The notes beneath the pieces were generated by a model. The model made no database searches, was not told where the DNA came from, and saw nothing but the letters and a program-made list of their open reading frames with translations. From Leptospirales bacterium (lineage in GTDB: Bacteria; Spirochaetota; Leptospiria; Leptospirales; Leptospiraceae): a DNA stretch of 64,000 nt. A program made the translations under genes and the position numbers. Below, piece by piece: positions 29,463 to 43,828 of this stretch (the stretch's first letter is position 1; every line of letters begins with the position of its first letter). The stretch covers positions 1 to 64,000 of the forward strand of contig JAAFIR010000025.1 of assembly GCA_013297885.1 (NCBI GenBank), read 5' to 3'.

Positions 29463-30852
29463 AAAAGAAATCTTTGTTATTTGAATTGAGTAAAATTAAA
29501 ACTAAGATAAAAGATAAAACTGGAATGATAAATTTTTTGTATTTATCAAATCTTTTAAAAAAGGCTGGAAATTCTTCAGAGAGATGAAAAATAATTCCAA
29601 AAATTAAAACATAAAAACCAGTTTCAATATAATTCATACTGAGTCCTTTTGAAAAAGTCAAAATTTTTGAAATCACCACAAAACCTTGTTTTAAGTTGCT
29701 AGTAAAAAATAAATTCCAAGGAATAATATATAGATGTAATACAAAAATATATTTTAGAATTTTGGAATATTTATTTTTAAAAATTTGTATATTTCTAATT
29801 TCAAAAAATCTTTCGATAGAAATAAAAACTCCAGTAATTACACCCCAAAGTAAATAATTAAAACTAGACCCATGCCAAAGTCCGCCTATTGTAAATGTGA
29901 TAATCAAATTGATATAATTTCTAAACTCTGAAACCCTTGATCCACCAAGAGGAATATAAATATAATCTCTGATCCAAAACGAAAAACTTAAATGCCATCT
30001 TCTCCAAAAATCAGAAAATCCATCCATAAAAAATGGGGCTTTAAAATTTACAGGCAAATCATATCCAAATAAAATTCCAAAACCACGAGCAATATCTGTT
30101 AGTCCTGAAAAATCTAAATACAAATTCATAGCAAAAAAATAAGAATTTAATAAAAGTGAAACACCAGAATAACTTTCTGGCTCAGAAAAAACTGGAACAA
30201 TAATGCTCATTAATGAATCTGATAAAGCCAGTTTTTTAAAATAACCCATTAAAATTAGCCAAATTCCAACGTAAAATTTTTCTTTTGTAATTTCAGGAGC
30301 TTTGAAATTTTCTTTAAATTCTAAAAGCCTAGTGATTGGACCAGCAATCATAATTGGGAAAAATAAAATATAAGAAGTGATGTTGAAAAAATTTAATTCT
30401 GTATTTTTTTTCTTAGAAATATCCACAGATAAAGAAATAAATTGAAATGTATAATATGAAATTGTCGCAGGTAACACAACTTCAAAATTCATTAGTCCAA
30501 GTGTGGAAGAAATAAAACTATTTAAACTTACTTTTTCTTGTAAAAAAGGAATTTGAAAAATTAAACCAAAAGTTTCTAAAACAAAATAAAAATATTTAAA
30601 AAAAATTAAATTGAATACATTAAACAAAATAGAATATTTTAAATTTTTTTCATTTTGTAAAATCAATTTATTTAAATAAAAATTGATTAGAATCACTAAA
30701 CATAAATGAAAATAAAATGGAATGCTAAATAGCATATAAAAAATAGAAGATGAAACAATTAGTAAATATCTTTTATACTTATCAGGAATATTCCAATAAA
30801 TATAAAAGCTTGTTAATACTAAAACAAAAAATTTATAACTTAGAAAACTCAT
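29449..30852 (-). CDS. MBOAT-family O-acyltransferase (AlgI/DltB-like)
   Basis: 467 aa polytopic membrane protein with about ten helices. The conserved segments FWRRWHLSFSFWIRDYIYIPLGG (about 270-292) and GGLWHGSSFNYLLWG (about 318-332, containing the invariant catalytic His) place it in the AlgI/DltB branch, which moves acyl groups across the membrane onto cell-surface polymers. It overlaps the upstream pseudouridine synthase gene by four bases and the downstream DUF1574-like gene by 14. This enzyme-plus-partner layout resembles alginate acetylation, but the target polymer cannot be deduced. Confidence 0.9.
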   Translation of the reverse strand: MSFLSYKFFVLVLTSFYIYWNIPDKYKRYLLIVSSSIFYMLFSIPFYFHLCLVILINFYLNKLILQNEKNLKYSILFNVFNLIFFKYFYFVLETFGLIFQIPFLQEKVSLNSFISSTLGLMNFEVVLPATISYYTFQFISLSVDISKKKNTELNFFNITSYILFFPIMIAGPITRLLEFKENFKAPEITKEKFYVGIWLILMGYFKKLALSDSLMSIIVPVFSEPESYSGVSLLLNSYFFAMNLYLDFSGLTDIARGFGILFGYDLPVNFKAPFFMDGFSDFWRRWHLSFSFWIRDYIYIPLGGSRVSEFRNYINLIITFTIGGLWHGSSFNYLLWGVITGVFISIERFFEIRNIQIFKNKYSKILKYIFVLHLYIIPWNLFFTSNLKQGFVVISKILTFSKGLSMNYIETGFYVLIFGIIFHLSEEFPAFFKRFDKYKKFIIPVLSFILVLILLNSNNKDFFYEKY

Positions 30853-33113
30853 TTCCCAAAAATTTCTTCTTTTGTAATAATTTTAAATTCACCCTCAGCC
30901 AAATTTAAACTTTCTAAATTTAATTCTCCAATTTGAACTCTTTCTAAATCTGTTACTTTTAATGAAATGGATTTGAACATTCTATGAATTTGTCTTTTTC
31001 TTCCTTCTTTTAAAGTGATTTTAACAATTCCAGATTGGTTGTCCAAAATTTCTATATCATCTGCACGAAGATATTCTCCTTCATCATCAATTCCTTTTAA
31101 AAATAATTCTACAAACGAATCATCTAGAATTGGTGTTCCTAGTTTTACGATGTAGATTTTTTTTAAGTGCATGGATGGGTGAGAAATTTGATTTATCAAT
31201 TCTCCATCATTGGAAAATATCATTAGTCCACGAGAACCAAGGTCAAGTCTTCCAGCCATATAAAGTCTTTTGTATTTTTCAGGGAGCAAATTGAATACAG
31301 TTTTATCATGATGAACGTCATGATGAGAACAAAGGTAAGCAGCTGGTTTATTCATAGCCAAAATAATTTCTTCAGTTGAAAAAGTAATTTCTTCCCCTTT
31401 AAATTCAATTTTGTCTTTAGTAATATCTACTTTATAACCAAGATCAGTTACAACTTCACCGTTGATTTTTATATCACCGTTTGTAATAAAAGTTTCTACA
31501 TCTCTTCTAGAGCCAAGCCCTGAGCGGGCTAAAAAACGATTGATTCTAAATTTGGTTTCGTCTGATTTTTCAAAAACTCGATTTTCAATTAATGAATCTT
31601 CTTCTTTTAAATTTTTTAGAAGTCCCAATTTTTCATTTCTAATTTCTTCAAAAATCCAATCAGGTGAAGATTCTTTTAATTTGATTTTTTTCTTAGGTTT
31701 AAATTCATCAGTTGTATCTTCAACTAAAGCATCAAACCCTGAAGATTTTTTCTTAAAGCTAAAATCTGGTTTTTCATCAGAGTCAAATTTTTTTCTAAAT
31801 GGTTTGTCTTCTTTTTCAAATTTATCAATTAAAGATTTACGTGGTCTGTCATCATTTCCAAAAGATTTTCTAAATGGTTTGTCTTCACCATCAGTCTTTT
31901 CTCTAAACGGTCTTCTTGGTCTATCATCGTTACCGAATTTATTTCCAAAAGATTTTCTGAATGGTTTGTCTTCACCCTCAGTCTTTTCTCTAAAAGGTCT
32001 TCTTGGTCTATCATCGTTACCGAATTTATTTCCAAAAGATTTTCTAAATGGTTTGTCTTCACCCTCAGTCTTTTCTCTAAAAGGTCTTCTTGGTCTATCA
32101 TCACCAAATTTATTTCCAAATGTTTTTCTAAATGGTTTGTCTTCACCCTCAGTCTTTTCTCTAAAAGGTCTTCTTGGTCTATCATCGTTACCGAATTTAT
32201 TTCCAAATGATTTTCTAAATGGTTTGTCTTCACCCTCAGTCTTTTCTCTGAATGGTCTTTTTGGTCTATCATCGTTACCAAATTTATTTCCAAAAGTTTT
32301 TCTAAATGGTTTGTCTTCACCTTCTGATTTTTCTCTAAAAGGTCTTCTTGGTCTATCATCGTTACCGAATTTATTTCCAAAAGATTTTCTAAATGGTTTG
32401 TCTTCACCTTCAGTCTTTTCTCTGAATGGTCTCTTTGGTCTATCATCACCGAATTTATTTCCAAAAGTTTTTCTAAATGGTTTGTCTTCACCTTCAGTCT
32501 TTCCTCTAAAAGGTCTTCTTGGTCTATCATCACCAAATTTATTTCCAAATGTTTTTCTAAATGGTTTATCTTCACCCTCAGTCTTTTCTCTAAAAGGTCT
32601 TCTTGGTCTATCATCACCAAATTTATTTCCAAAAGATTTTCTAAATGGTTTGTCTTCACCTTCCGTCTTTTCTCTGAATGGTCTTCTAGGTCTATCATCA
32701 CCAAATTTATTTCCAAAAGATTTTCTAAATGGTTTGTCTTCACCTTCTGATTTTTCTCTAAAAGGTCTTCTTGGTCTATCATCGTTACCGAATTTATTTC
32801 CAAATGTTTTTCTAAATGGTTTGTCTTCACCCTCAGACTTTTCTCTAAAAGGTCTTCTTGGTCTATCATCGTTACCGAATTTATTTCCAAATGTTTTTCT
32901 AAAAGGTTTTGCTTCACCTTCCGATTTTTCTCTAAAAGGTCTCTTTGGTCTGTCGTCGTTTTTAAATTTATCGTTATAAGATTTTCTAAAAGGCTTTTCA
33001 CCTGAATCAGATTTTTCTCCAAAAGGTTTTCTTGGTCTATCTGAACCTGTTCCACCAAATTTTTTCTTTGGTTTATCTGAATTTTTTCTAAAATTTGGTT
33101 TGTTCTCTGGCAT
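30849..33113 (-). CDS. rluB: RluB-like pseudouridine synthase with a large basic repeat domain
   Basis: 754 aa. Residues about 25-430 are a low-complexity domain of tandem 28-29-residue units (DKPFRKSFGNKF-G/N-DDRPRRPFREK); KPFRK occurs 15 times. The C-terminal 240 residues are a complete RsuA/RluB-type enzyme: an S4 RNA-binding domain (NRFLARSGLGSRRDVETFI), catalytic GRLDLGSRGL and GRKRQIHRMF. The enzyme isomerises uridine in rRNA. The Arg/Lys/Phe-rich tail probably adds RNA binding or condensate-forming ability. ATG 33113 with GGA six bases upstream is preferred over TTG 33131. ATGA overlap with the MBOAT gene. Confidence 0.9.
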   Translation of the reverse strand: MPENKPNFRKNSDKPKKKFGGTGSDRPRKPFGEKSDSGEKPFRKSYNDKFKNDDRPKRPFREKSEGEAKPFRKTFGNKFGNDDRPRRPFREKSEGEDKPFRKTFGNKFGNDDRPRRPFREKSEGEDKPFRKSFGNKFGDDRPRRPFREKTEGEDKPFRKSFGNKFGDDRPRRPFREKTEGEDKPFRKTFGNKFGDDRPRRPFRGKTEGEDKPFRKTFGNKFGDDRPKRPFREKTEGEDKPFRKSFGNKFGNDDRPRRPFREKSEGEDKPFRKTFGNKFGNDDRPKRPFREKTEGEDKPFRKSFGNKFGNDDRPRRPFREKTEGEDKPFRKTFGNKFGDDRPRRPFREKTEGEDKPFRKSFGNKFGNDDRPRRPFREKTEGEDKPFRKSFGNKFGNDDRPRRPFREKTDGEDKPFRKSFGNDDRPRKSLIDKFEKEDKPFRKKFDSDEKPDFSFKKKSSGFDALVEDTTDEFKPKKKIKLKESSPDWIFEEIRNEKLGLLKNLKEEDSLIENRVFEKSDETKFRINRFLARSGLGSRRDVETFITNGDIKINGEVVTDLGYKVDITKDKIEFKGEEITFSTEEIILAMNKPAAYLCSHHDVHHDKTVFNLLPEKYKRLYMAGRLDLGSRGLMIFSNDGELINQISHPSMHLKKIYIVKLGTPILDDSFVELFLKGIDDEGEYLRADDIEILDNQSGIVKITLKEGRKRQIHRMFKSISLKVTDLERVQIGELNLESLNLAEGEFKIITKEEIFGK
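31850..32990 (-). repeat. Tandem 84/87-bp coding repeats inside rluB
   Basis: About thirteen full copies of an 84- or 87-bp unit encode the 28- or 29-residue repeat; the size difference is one Asn codon before GDD/NDD. Copies differ mainly at a few codons (Ser/Thr after FRK, Ser/Thr in EK-S/T-EG), so units are highly similar in DNA and prone to copy-number change by recombination. Because the unit length is a multiple of three, expansion or loss keeps the downstream enzyme in frame. Confidence 0.9.
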
Positions 33114-33137
33114 TACATGTCCAAAAATCAATTCTTA

Positions 33138-33223: not shown

Positions 33224-33451
33224 GGGGCGAATTTTTCCCACAGCTCTGCTGAGGAATGTTGAATGCAAAATGAAGAATGAGGAATTATGAATAGAATTCT
33301 AAGTCAAAAAATTCTGCATTTAGCATTCAACATTTTTAATTCCGAAGGGAAAAACCGGGCTTTCCTCTTTTGTCAACTTTTTGTTAAATTTTTCATTTCC
33401 AAAATTTTTTAATTTGCAAAAAGTTGACATCGAGTCAATCCCTTTCGCATA
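33224..33451 (+). repeat. Structured intergenic repeat, copy B (longest)
   Basis: The left end GGGGCGAATTTTTCCC pairs its TTTTTCCC (33232-33239) with GGGAAAAA (33347-33354). Nested within is AATGTTGAATGC (33255-33266) with GCATTCAACATT (33323-33334), perfect over 12 bp. The centre is CCGGGCTTTCC (33355-33365). Hairpin 2 is TGTCAACTTTTTG (33371-33383) with CAAAAAGTTGACA (33417-33429), perfect over 13 bp. The right end reads CGAGTCAATCCCTTTCGC. It occupies most of the 405-bp gap between rluB and the NHL genes; I see no open frame in the gap. Confidence 0.75.
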
Positions 33452-33518: not shown

Positions 33519-34547
33519 TTAATAATACAACACTCGATGATTAGTTAGATCAGCTATATAAATTCCACCTTCTGAATCTAATTTTACATCATGAGGATTG
33601 TTTAAAGAATTTGCTGATAGAGAAGGATTGTTAGCAGTGCAAGCATTAAGGTTAGTATTAGTTGGTGGACCAAAAACCAATGTGGCTGTTGGATTATCCT
33701 TTTGAAAATAAATTACTCGATGATTAGAAAAATCAGCGATATACAGTCCTCCAAAATCATCCACTGTGATTCCTGTTGGAAAAAATAAATTTGTGTTGCT
33801 GCAGGTTCCACCACCAGCAGTAGAAAAATCTGTAAAATTTCCTCTACCCCAAACTCTAGTCGCTAAAGTAGTATTTTTTGGGTAAAACAAAACTCTATTA
33901 TTATTTGAATCAGAAACATATAAATTTTCATCTTTGTCTAAAAAAATTCCTAGTGGAGAAGTAAGTTTTGCTGCATCTATTACTCCAGCATTATTGGGAG
34001 TAATTGAACTATAATTGCCTGTTGGTTGTCCATAAACTCTATTTGCATTTGAATCAATATCAGGAAAATAAAGGATACGTTTTGAGCTTTCATCTGAAAC
34101 ATAAATTCCTAAGTTCGAATCTATCGCAATAGAGTTTGCAAGTAAAAATTGATAATTTGAAGTAGCACAAGGATTGGCAGTATTCAAATCAGTTCTACTT
34201 AATCTACCCAAAACTCTGTCTGCAGTTGTTATATTTGAAGGAAATCGAACAACTCTACAATTTTGGTTAGCTTGTGCTCCATCTGCTACATATAAATTAT
34301 TATTTTTGTCTAGAGCTATTCCACGAATTGCTGCAGTAAATCTTGTAGATGAAGCCCCAGTTGTGAGTGCTGTCAAACTTCCATCATTTCCATAGGCTCT
34401 AGTGGCAGTTGTTGAAGTTCCTGAAAAAAATAATACTCGTGAATTTATTACATCAGCAACATAAACACCATCCACTGAAGGTAAAACAGAGTGGGGTTGG
34501 TTTAAAGCATTTGCTCCATTTGCTGCAATTGTTCCAATGTTTGCCAT
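33519..34547 (-). CDS. NHL-repeat lipoprotein, 3' part of a frameshifted gene
   Basis: Open frame encoding about six NHL beta-propeller units of the type GIALDKNNNLYVADGAQNCRVVRFP, followed by NANRVYGQ. It is the continuation of the gene whose 5' part lies at 34502-35128; the two frames overlap and are offset by one base. Comparison with the intact neighbour (35293-36912) shows the join: KIRVFGP in one frame and ASRVYGQNGSF in the other correspond to KIKVLGQNAFRVYAQNGSF. The break lies near 34588-34596. The ATG at 34547 is in mid-domain and has no good ribosome site, so independent expression is doubtful. Confidence 0.75.
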   Translation of the reverse strand: MANIGTIAANGANALNQPHSVLPSVDGVYVADVINSRVLFFSGTSTTATRAYGNDGSLTALTTGASSTRFTAAIRGIALDKNNNLYVADGAQANQNCRVVRFPSNITTADRVLGRLSRTDLNTANPCATSNYQFLLANSIAIDSNLGIYVSDESSKRILYFPDIDSNANRVYGQPTGNYSSITPNNAGVIDAAKLTSPLGIFLDKDENLYVSDSNNNRVLFYPKNTTLATRVWGRGNFTDFSTAGGGTCSNTNLFFPTGITVDDFGGLYIADFSNHRVIYFQKDNPTATLVFGPPTNTNLNACTANNPSLSANSLNNPHDVKLDSEGGIYIADLTNHRVLYY

Positions 34548-35128
34548 ATTTGTTGTAAAACTTCCGTTCTGTCCATAAACTCTTGAAGCTGTGGACCAAA
34601 TACTCTAATTTTCATAGTTACATTAACAGTTTGTCCTGCGTTTGATGATGCAATGATGGAATAATTTGTGGCAGGTGAAGTAGGTGTTGCAGTTCCAGAA
34701 ATTGCTCCAGTGTTCACATTTAAGTTCAATCCAGCAGGTAAACTCGGTGATATAGAAACATTTTGTAAAGTTCCAACTACTGTTGGCAATGGCACTGCTT
34801 GGTTTTGGTTTATTAAAAATGAATATGCATTTTTTTCGTAAGCAAAAGAAAAGGGTGTAAGTGTCCCTGTCCCAGTCCCAGTTGCTGTCCCTGTTGTGGT
34901 ACCTGTTCCTGTAGCTAAGCCAGTTCCTGTTGCAGAAATATTTGCTCGATCTCTGATTCTTAAACTGCAATAAAATTCTTGGTTTGTAGTTGTTCTCCAG
35001 ACTAAAGCTTCACGAATAAATTTTGCAGGATCAGATAAATCACAAATTTTGTCAGTATTTAAACTTGGTGCACAGTTATGAAAACAAAGAACTGAAGATA
35101 GAATACTGATTACAAAACTTTTTTTCAT
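34502..35128 (-). CDS. NHL-repeat lipoprotein, 5' part of a frameshifted gene
   Basis: Encodes the signal peptide (MKKSFVISILSSVLCFHNC, lipobox region), the conserved N-terminal cassette (APSLNTDKICDLSDPAKF to SLRIRDRAN), a Thr/Gly linker with repeated TGTG, and a putative Ig-like (He_PIG) domain with SPSLPAGLNLNVNTGAISG. The frame then runs into nonsense (QLQEFMDRTEV) where the propeller should begin. ATG 35128 is chosen, with AAGG eight bases upstream, over TTG 35134. As it stands the product would be a truncated lipoprotein without its propeller. Either a pseudogene or a sequencing error. Confidence 0.75.
   Translation of the reverse strand: MKKSFVISILSSVLCFHNCAPSLNTDKICDLSDPAKFIREALVWRTTTNQEFYCSLRIRDRANISATGTGLATGTGTTTGTATGTGTGTLTPFSFAYEKNAYSFLINQNQAVPLPTVVGTLQNVSISPSLPAGLNLNVNTGAISGTATPTSPATNYSIIASSNAGQTVNVTMKIRVFGPQLQEFMDRTEVLQQIWQTLEQLQQMEQML
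34934..35077 (-). repeat. 144-bp cassette repeat, copy 1
   Basis: This 144-bp segment, encoding the conserved lipoprotein N-terminal module, matches 36721-36864 with only two differences that I can find (ACTGC/ACTAC and GGTGC/GGAGC). The flanking linker, Ig-like and propeller regions are much more diverged. Both copies have the same orientation, about 1.8 kb apart, so recombination between them could delete or fuse the two genes. Confidence 0.85.
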
Positions 35129-35292
35129 GAGCAAAACCTTGCAAATTGCATATAATTTTTAAAATATAATAATATTTTTTTTGAAAATTTTGTCAATTAA
35201 TTTTTAGATTTAAAAAAAGACTGCAAAACAATTTATCTATTTTTTAAATTAATTAAGCAATACAAAAACTTACTAACAGATTATAACTCAAA

Positions 35293-36912
35293 CTAAAAAA
35301 CTAACACTCTATGGTTACTCTCTTCTGAAGTATAAAAATTTCCAAATGAGTCAAAAGCAGTATTTCCCATTGGCTTATCAATTCGATTGGCTGCTATTCC
35401 GGTAGCACATGTTGTAAAATTTGTCAAACTAGTTTGACCGAGAATATAAGTTGCATTCATGTTCATTGTGAATGGAGGTTTAAATATCATTAACCTAAAA
35501 TAAGTATCAGAGCTAGCAAATAAATTTCCATTTGAGTCAAATGTTAAACCTGTAATACCTCCAACAGTCGAACTAGTACAACTTGCAGGTGGAGTTGCGA
35601 CATTACTAGTCAATCCAGATTGTCCAATAGCAATAGAAGCAACATTAGATCCTTTGGGAAAAATTAAAATTCGATTATTACCAGTATCTCCCACATAAAC
35701 CGATGTAGCATCACTAATGACTCCTTTTGGACCTGATAAACCACTTGAGTTTGTTATACCGGCTCCTGAACATGTATTAGTCACATTATCTGTATTAACA
35801 TTCGCACATGTCCATTGTAGTGTTCCTGCTGCTTTTCCATAAACTGATGTGGCGATTGGACTATTTGTTGAATAGAACATTACTCGATTATTAATATTAT
35901 CTGAGATATAAATTTCATTGTTTGAATCAATTGAAATTCCTTGCGGATAGTTAAATAAATTCTGATTAACACTTGGTCCCGCAGCCCCGGTTAAATTTCC
36001 ATTTTGACCATAAGCTAAGTTTGCGGTAGTGGGCGTTACACTTGGAGGATAACGTAATACTCGAAAATTTACATGGTCAATTATGTATAAATTATTTTGA
36101 GAATCCAAAGTTAGTCCATAAGGAGTATTTAAAGATGTTGCAGTGCCAGCAGAAGGTGTTCCCGTTATGAAACCAGCTTGTCCATAAACTCTTGTGGCTG
36201 TTGTGCTTCCAGCAGTAAAAAATAGAACTCGATTGTTTCCAGAATCTGCAATATAAACATTATCATTTGCATCTACAGTAACACCTCTTGGAGTGTTTAA
36301 ACATTTATCCCCATTTGCTCCTATTGAACCAATATTTAATGTGTTTGTTCCAAAACTTCCATTCTGTGCATAAACTCGAAATGCATTTTGTCCAAGAACT
36401 TTTATTTTTGTGGACGCAGTTGCTTGACCAACTGCATTTGTAGCAGTAATTGTATAACTTGCACCAGCTCCGCCAGTTGTGGCAGTCCCAGTTATTGCAC
36501 AAGTTGTTGCATTGATACTTAGTCCTGTTGGTAAAGCTGGTGAAATAGTACATGAAGTTGGTGGGTCTCCTCCAAGTGTTGGAATAATGTTGTATGCCTC
36601 ACCTTGAAAACCTGAATAAAGTGTTTTTGCAAAAGATATTGTGGGGGCTGTTGGTTGTAGTGTTCCAGTTCCTGTCCCAGTTGAAATTCCTGTTCCAGTT
36701 CCACTTCCTGTGTTTGAACCAGAAATATTTGCTCGATCTCTGATTCTTAAACTACAATAAAATTCTTGGTTTGTAGTTGTTCTCCAGACTAAAGCTTCAC
36801 GAATAAATTTTGCAGGATCAGATAAATCACAAATTTTGTCAGTATTTAAACTTGGAGCACAGTTTTCAAAACAAAAGAAGTACATAAAAAAGAAAAAAAT
36901 TAATTTGTCCAT
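35293..36912 (-). CDS. NHL beta-propeller lipoprotein
   Basis: 539 aa, the intact paralogue of the broken gene downstream. A hydrophobic N-terminus with NC near residue 17 suggests lipidation. Then come the shared cassette (SLNTDKICDLSDPAKFIREA onwards), a Gly/Thr/Ser linker, an Ig-like He_PIG domain (ISPALPTGLSINATTCAITG) and about six NHL repeats (GVTVDANDNVYIADSGNNRVLFF). NHL propellers are binding scaffolds; extracellular ones in leptospires are thought to face the environment. Ligand unknown. It probably has its own transcript, with a 158-bp gap before the paralogue. Confidence 0.85.
   Translation of the reverse strand: MDKLIFFFFMYFFCFENCAPSLNTDKICDLSDPAKFIREALVWRTTTNQEFYCSLRIRDRANISGSNTGSGTGTGISTGTGTGTLQPTAPTISFAKTLYSGFQGEAYNIIPTLGGDPPTSCTISPALPTGLSINATTCAITGTATTGGAGASYTITATNAVGQATASTKIKVLGQNAFRVYAQNGSFGTNTLNIGSIGANGDKCLNTPRGVTVDANDNVYIADSGNNRVLFFTAGSTTATRVYGQAGFITGTPSAGTATSLNTPYGLTLDSQNNLYIIDHVNFRVLRYPPSVTPTTANLAYGQNGNLTGAAGPSVNQNLFNYPQGISIDSNNEIYISDNINNRVMFYSTNSPIATSVYGKAAGTLQWTCANVNTDNVTNTCSGAGITNSSGLSGPKGVISDATSVYVGDTGNNRILIFPKGSNVASIAIGQSGLTSNVATPPASCTSSTVGGITGLTFDSNGNLFASSDTYFRLMIFKPPFTMNMNATYILGQTSLTNFTTCATGIAANRIDKPMGNTAFDSFGNFYTSEESNHRVLVF
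36721..36864 (-). repeat. 144-bp cassette repeat, copy 2
   Basis: Partner of the segment at 34934-35077, with two mismatches seen over 144 bases. Near-identity limited to the N-terminal module, while neighbouring domains differ, points to gene conversion or recent cassette exchange instead of simple whole-gene duplication. Confidence 0.85.
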
Positions 36913-42469: not shown

Positions 42470-43828
42470 ATGAAACAAATTCTAATTTTTATTTTACTCA
42501 TTCAAATAGTTTTTTCCCAATCAAAAAAAAATAATTTTTCTACAGGTGAATGTATTGAAGGTGACTGTGATGAAAAATACGGAGTGATGCTTTATCCTTC
42601 TAAAGATAAATATTTAGGTGAATGGAAAAACGGACAGAAAGAAGGCAAAGGAACTTATATTTATGCTAATGGTGATAAATATGAAGGAGAGTGGAAATCG
42701 GGTTCTTTTTTTGGAATGGGAACTTTTTATTATTCAGATAATTCAAAATACATAGGAGGATTTAAAGGGAGTAGTTTTGAAGGCTTCGGAAGATTTTATC
42801 ATAATGATGGATCTGTTTTTGAAGGCTATTACAAAAATGGAAAACGAAATGGAAAAGGAAATTATAAATACTCTTCAGGTGACGAATACATAGGTGAATT
42901 TAAAGACGAAAAATTTTCAGGACGAGGAAAGTATATTTATTCAAATGGAGAAACTTATATCGGTGACTTTAGTGATGATAAATTTAATGGGAATGGAATT
43001 TTTCAATTTAGAAATGGAGATCGTTACGAAGGAGAATTTAAAAACAATTACCAGGAAGGTCCTGGAATTTATATTTTTGCAAACATGAGTAAATACATCG
43101 GAGATTTTCAAAAAGGAAAATATTTTGGAAAAGGTATATACTATTTTTCTGATGGTGATAAATACGAAGGTGAGTTTAAGGATGATAAATTTCACGGAGA
43201 AGGAGTTTATACTTTTGTAAATGGAACTGTATATCGAGGAAAATTTGAAAACGATTCTTATAATGGCAAAGGTGATATCAAGTTTTCAGATGGAAATAAA
43301 TATACAGGTGAATTTAGAGATGATAAATATTTTGGGAAAGGCACAATTCTTTATGCAAATGGTGACCAATACATGGGTGAGTTTAGAGACGGGGAATATT
43401 ATGGCAAAGGCACTTTAACTTATGCTAACGGTGACAAATATATTGGTGATTTTGAAAATGGAAAACGAAATGGAAAAGGAAATTATTATTATGCAAATGG
43501 AGATAGATACATTGGTGATTTTAAATTAGACAAATACCATGGTAAAGGAAAATATATTTTTACGGATGGTGGATCTTACCAAGGGGATTTTGAAGATGAT
43601 AAATACAATGGTTATGGAATTTATGTTTATTCAAATGGAGATCGTTACCAAGGTCAATTTAAAGATGATATGAGACAAGGCAAAGGTGTGTTCTTTTTTA
43701 ATACTGGCAAAAAATATGATGGAGAATACAAAAATAATAAACGTGACGGTTACGGGGTGTTATACGATAAATCTGGAAAAATTCTTTTCCAAGGAAACTG
43801 GGTTCAAGGTGAGCAAAAAAATCAGTGA
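42470..43828 (+). CDS. Secreted MORN-repeat protein
   Basis: 452 aa: a signal peptide ([17 protein letters not shown]) followed by about 17-18 MORN repeats of 23 residues (pattern YxGEFKDxKxxGKGxYxYANGDK) with almost nothing else. MORN repeats form extended beta-meander rods; in bacteria they are of largely unknown function, in eukaryotes they bind lipids or act as scaffolds. A fragment [12 protein letters not shown] before the repeats contains two Cys. The stop overlaps the GTG start of rluF by four bases, so the two share a message although no functional link is evident. Confidence 0.88.

Follow-up and report, generated by a model that had tools for sequence, protein, structure and literature searches.

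Escherichia coli RsuA, RluB and RluF (PDB 1KSK, 4LGT and 3DH3) are the described enzymes closest to the one analyzed here, with which they have in common the S4 and catalytic domains, the predicted fold and the GRLD catalytic motif. Basic tails are likewise present in RluB (net charge +10 in the C-terminal 46 residues) and RluF (+15 in the C-terminal 45), and the available text of PMC3919597 reports these tails as disordered, either predicted or seen. They are short and C-terminal, whereas the arm considered here is N-terminal, about 500 residues long including its linker, and consists mostly of a tandem array. According to the accessible part of PMC13269538, Bacteroides thetaiotaomicron Rho is also a conserved RNA enzyme with a charged intrinsically disordered region (IDR); it is, however, an unrelated enzyme, and condensation, which has been shown for Rho, is a mere possibility for the present arm. 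The amino-acid tandem repeats of Borgs, as outlined in the text available for PMC9879509, have units divisible by three, stay in frame, are mostly disordered and turn over fast under selection, and some of them are K/E polyampholytes like the present arm. In contrast, they belong to archaeal extrachromosomal elements and are nearly devoid of Phe, while the present repeat lies in one rRNA-enzyme gene and is Phe-rich. The RGG/RG-type and K/R-rich low-complexity regions covered by the consulted portion of PMC6821194 share an Arg-rich disordered composition of RNA-binding type; unlike the RGG/RG-type regions, the present protein contains no RGG motif and about 20% acidic residues. Charged IDRs, basic low-complexity regions and in-frame repeats are thus known parts of the picture. 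An rRNA pseudouridine synthase with a long N-terminal array did not turn up among the titles and abstracts listed for open-licence papers, none of which dealt with a repeat-bearing bacterial enzyme of this kind.

The array lies in the window (the whole 64,000-nucleotide stretch of DNA that was analyzed), within a minus-strand open reading frame (ORF) extending over 30849..33131, with its ATG at 33113. The features are:

30849..33113, minus strand: S4/pseudouridine synthase gene with N-terminal repeat arm, 754 aa (ORF call, Pfam)
33000..33113, minus strand: basic leader, aa 1-38, ahead of the first KPFRK unit
31884..32999, minus strand: 13 near-regular units, each 84/87 bp or 28/29 aa long, with the consensus DKPFRK(S/T)FGNKFG(N)DDRPRRPFREKTEGE
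31764..31883, minus strand: units 14-15, degenerate, with the last two KPFRK
31578..31661, minus strand: predicted helix, aa 485-512, immediately N-terminal to S4
31425..31547, minus strand: S4 RNA-binding domain, aa 523-563 (Pfam)
30972..31364, minus strand: PseudoU_synth_2 catalytic domain, aa 584-714 (Pfam)
31242..31244, minus strand: Asp624 in the GRLD motif, at the position of the family's catalytic Asp (Asp110 in E. coli RluB)

The original prediction of fifteen KPFRK repeats in units of 84/87 bp ahead of the enzyme agrees with the 15 exact KPFRK motifs counted (aa 40-437, with 13 RPFR at aa 58-401) and with the 28 or 29 aa of units 1-13; unit 14 has 25 aa (75 bp) and unit 15 is degenerate. 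The predicted absence of frame loss was also borne out, since the difference between 84 and 87 bp among the 12 units aligned below is a single AAC (Asn) codon. Tandem Repeats Finder detects a period of 87 (13.8 copies, 90% matches, score 1732) and a second period of 258, i.e., three units (score 1752), so that blocks of three units may have been copied. The best other array of the window scores just 168, which argues that this one is not due to chance. The genome is a 72-contig draft, and the exact number of units is provisional. Other frames of the array also hold long ORFs (31462-32979, plus strand; 31829-33058, minus strand); these were discounted as incidental to a repeat that lacks stops, and their composition falls outside the coding-frame pattern given below. 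Used as a query against 13 genomes (E 0.001), the window arm matched its own place alone, so that the repeat was seen in no other protein of its own genome. A promoter/terminator scan gave no signal exceeding shuffles.

The neighborhood of the gene has features of its own. An intergenic imperfect palindrome with 24-nt arms (33255-33278 and 33311-33334) lies just upstream, at 33225-33345; it has 26 matches in its own genome at E 1e-3 or better, two of which are the place itself on either strand, and is, judging from these copies, a dispersed MITE- or REP-like element. The same intergenic region contains a perfect 13-nt inverted repeat, TGTCAACTTTTTG / CAAAAAGTTGACA, at 33371-33383 and 33417-33429. 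Further along, the minus-strand ORFs 34502-35134 and 35293-36912 both contain CAPSLNTDKICDLSDPAKFIREALVWRTTTNQEFYC and, after it, a stretch rich in Thr and Gly, and likely form a paralogous lipoprotein family.

The enzyme itself looks ordinary. Pfam recognizes PseudoU_synth_2 (E-value 1.4e-18) and S4 (9.2e-10), the latter N-terminal of the catalytic domain as in RsuA, RluB and RluF, and the catalytic Asp of the GRLD motif is present. Asp624 is invariant in alignments A2 and A3, and a catalytic role of its E. coli RluB counterpart, Asp110, is given in the available text of PMC3919597. The score of 121.2 bits exceeds the TIGR00093 (RsuA/RluB/RluE/RluF) subfamily cut-off of 109.3. The equivalog scores are all below their cut-offs: 108.4 against 290 bits for RluB (23S Psi2605, NF007976), 122.1 against 275 bits for RsuA (16S Psi516, NF008097) and 101 bits for RluF. 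From the "normal RluB-like enzyme" initially proposed, the ordinary pseudouridine synthase with S4 and PseudoU_synth_2 domains can be retained, whereas the name RluB is too specific. An AlphaFold model of the core (30 sequences, mean pLDDT 80) matches the RsuA, RluF and RluB structures.

Three TIGR00093 matches above cut-off, and a weak one, are found in this genome. In a 37-row tree, one of them (L002; 43825-44544 of the window, plus strand) clusters with E. coli RluF (support 100/99) and another (L003) with E. coli RluE (100/98), while the window enzyme belongs to a separate 28-row clade of its class (100/98); L034 and L035, removed by a motif filter, are missing from this tree and were examined afterwards. 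An assignment of the window enzyme to RluF or RluE was rejected, as it does not group with those E. coli enzymes. Since L002 and L003 take these two positions, the third paralog is, by elimination, a candidate RsuA- or RluB-type enzyme. Directly before the RluF ortholog, and overlapping it by 4 bases, lies a 452-aa repeat ORF (42470-43828, plus strand), the repeats of which resemble MORN repeats.

In the full-length AlphaFold model (5 sequences, mean pLDDT 50), no secondary structure is seen before aa 485 and the array has a pLDDT of about 34. In each of the seven arms compared, i.e., that of the window and those of six relatives, the coding frame alone combines 25-35% K/R, 15-22% D/E and at most 5% aliphatic residues, which the other five frames do not, and charge-hydropathy analysis classifies all seven as disordered. 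Their net charge ranges from +31 to +51; it amounts to +50 in the window arm (aa 1-446) versus -4 in the folded core. The anticipated likeness to RNA-binding tails thus holds for composition, all seven arms being net-basic and Lys/Arg-rich. By contrast, the term "charge-patterned", in the sense of blocks, has to be abandoned: none of the seven arms shows charge asymmetry above shuffles, as a blocky (charge-segregated) polyampholyte would, and in all of them the charges are mixed at least as well as in shuffled sequences (delta/shuffle of 0.87, z -0.9, in the window and 0.18-0.76, z -1.4 to -5.8, in the six relatives). In polymer theory, well-mixed charges favor expanded chains over blocky association.

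The reading that we consider the most plausible, with some reserve, is that the arm is a disordered, net-basic and non-specific electrostatic tether on an ordinary RsuA/RluB-type rRNA pseudouridine synthase, with its composition under selection. The Lys and Arg residues, together with the regularly spaced Phe, would touch rRNA or pre-ribosomal particles at many points, each contact being weak. Such an expanded basic arm would draw rRNA or pre-ribosomes to a core that is about neutral, and through its contacts the S4 and catalytic domains would be likelier to meet their stem-loop. Enrichment of lysine- and arginine-rich low-complexity regions in prokaryotic DNA/RNA-binding proteins is described in the consulted portion of PMC6821194. 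Contrary to a tether, the disordered C-terminal domain of E. coli RluF is reported, in the available text of PMC3919597, to make no contribution to stem-loop binding.

A second reading, which appears unlikely, would have the arm drive RNA-dependent condensation (complex coacervation), so that the enzyme is concentrated in ribosome-assembly foci and the number of units sets the valency. The many repeats and the composition of the window extension (13% aromatic, 13% Arg and 16% Lys residues) would suit such a role, as would the nearest analogue, the Bacteroides Rho IDR, the KE-rich part of which is essential for RNA-dependent condensates according to the accessible part of PMC13269538. However, the good mixing of the charges speaks against it, and the aromatic content goes down to 3-5% in five of the armed relatives.

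The distribution of the arm was analyzed among 48 genomes of the class, 38 of them matching at 1e-30, with extension lengths measured from the earliest available start codon, linker included. Three among the closest relatives are Leptospiraceae metagenome-assembled genomes, and the bacterium of the window probably belongs to this family, too. Six of the 8 genomes in the window's own family, f1, show an arm in whole or in part, namely G000, G001, G003, G004, G005 and G002 (N-terminal half), the exceptions being G006, which has no arm, and G007, which has no match at 1e-30. In the sister family f2 (22 genomes, 16 matching), the extension is at least 100 aa long in 8 members and shorter than 60 aa in 7, G011 being left out (open frame of 267 aa) and 6 genomes having no match at 1e-30. 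The arm is thus dispensable in evolution, since 7 of the 15 f2 members examined do without it. An N-terminal extension of at least 60 aa is found in none of the 9 members examined from the other families of the class (18 genomes, 16 matching), one of which (G043) has a C-terminal tail of 160 aa. When genome contigs were searched, the window enzyme alone as query gave 0 loci and an alignment-based query gave 19.

Charged extensions of a similar sort occur on Bacteroidota RluB-type enzymes. In the same phylum as the window, 353 of 392 genomes match. Among the matches listed, L077 (G221) is a pseudouridine synthase that has a C-terminal tail of 73 aa and, at its N-terminus, about 100 basic residues which show no visible repeat and might represent the arm in a repeat-free form. 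Another of these, L076 (G237), is a 426-aa open frame, possibly a fusion, that seems to link a FolK-like (HPPK) domain with an S4 pseudouridine synthase.

The arms of related genomes are built from different units: 38-aa GERKPFNR doubles in G002 (same genus), KEFRDRKSFGDK in G004, RGNREGGDRGSFRPRPEG in G005, GRSFDRKD in G014 and RREFGSDRPQRDRPP in G019. At E 1e-3, DNA similarity among the seven arrays is seen in two cases alone, between G002 and G003, at 71% over 754 nt, and in one 22-nt match between the window and G004; at this threshold the window array does not match those of the same-genus genomes G002 and G003. Weak similarity is detected between arms at the protein level (window-G004, E 2e-7; window-G002, E 6e-6; G027-G014, E 1e-6), which may reflect composition or remote ancestry. 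Since the relatives' arms have a like chemistry made from different repeats, it seems to be this chemistry, rather than the exact sequence, that is kept. The units of G016 and G019, of which only 2 and 5 could be compared, are 95-96% identical within each genome and 84% between genomes (enzymes 78%, DNA), a pattern like concerted evolution. Repeat turnover, as originally predicted, is thus supported between species. Arm length varies as well, with 290, 238 and 323 aa in L009, L010 and L011, from one genus of f2. The contigs of all three same-genus relatives (G001, G002 and G003) terminate inside the array, as expected where long similar repeats break short-read assembly, so that unit counts from drafts, including that of the window, are provisional.

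Comparison of the units also bears on selection. Units 2-13 of the window (n = 12) were aligned by codon, units 1, 14 and 15 being left out as divergent. Their mean DNA identity is 93%, and the differences fall 63, 42 and 287 times on codon positions 1, 2 and 3 (mean pS 0.249, mean pN 0.027, pN/pS 0.11). Synonymous changes make up 15 of the 21 distinct codon variants. Neutral mutation that avoids stops would be expected to give 4.96, and 15 was reached in 0 of 20000 neutral draws, in a test that counts related copies as separate though the units share ancestry. The remaining six change the amino acid: S/T (twice), K/R, D/E, E/G and D/A. As the differences are mostly synonymous, the amino-acid sequence of the units is under purifying selection.

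The array could also have arisen incidentally, through repeat slippage in a terminal extension that tolerates it, with selection only purging toxic or aggregating variants, but this looks improbable in view of the strong synonymous excess. Repeats do expand easily, close relatives differ in units or arm length, and the arm is missing from G006 and from the 7 f2 members mentioned above. Yet one bulk composition recurs with different units, and the presence of the arm is explained by just 3 changes on a 21-row tree. For an electrostatic tether, unit duplication and homogenization could turn over the sequence and length of the arm while selection holds its composition.

Very little weight can be given to a mainly protein-binding or chaperone-like arm (acting on ribosomal proteins, or in RNA annealing) that would make its specific contact, with a hypothetical partner, through the conserved pre-S4 helix. 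This helix does sit between arm and S4, and the linker positions K475, E494, K495 and L502 do not vary among 5 family members (alignment A1), but it is predicted with moderate confidence (block pLDDT 45-69) and may have a role separate from that of the repeats.

The electrostatic tether might be accompanied by a change in the enzyme core. Among the f1 and f2 genomes, the core charge per residue is +0.010 with an extension of at least 100 aa (13 genomes) versus +0.048 in the others (8 genomes; p 0.0009), and the GC content of the locus does not differ between the two groups. The 3 changes of arm state provide 2 independent pairs on well-supported branches and 3 on all branches, with a median p of 1 in the sign test. 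TruB, as a control (20 of 21 genomes), shows a trend in the same direction (p 0.067). Era was tried as a second control and dropped, having matched in 18 of 21 genomes, mostly below cut-off, with values for 3 of 21; the matched frames are presumably of Der-like length. The net charge of E. coli RluF is 0 up to residue 245 and +15 in the tail, and that of its tail-less ortholog in the window genome is +15 overall. Counter-examples are E. coli RsuA, tail-less with a net charge of -8, and L078, which lacks a basic arm when read from its first Met and has a core charge of 0. Given these counter-examples and the few independent pairs, a compensation of positive charge between core and arm is suggestive at most.

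On a broader and rather doubtful view, Leptospirales and their relatives would concentrate an rRNA-modifying enzyme on nascent ribosomes, in a nucleolus-like manner, by means of arms that are built from repeats and conserved in composition, with the number of units as an evolvable valency dial and positive charge moved from core to arm. The family in any case offers, within one enzyme clade, armed members, armless members and arms made from different repeats. With this natural series one can ask if bulk composition is what selection acts on in disordered regions, and if basic tails make it easier for rRNA-modifying enzymes to find their site.
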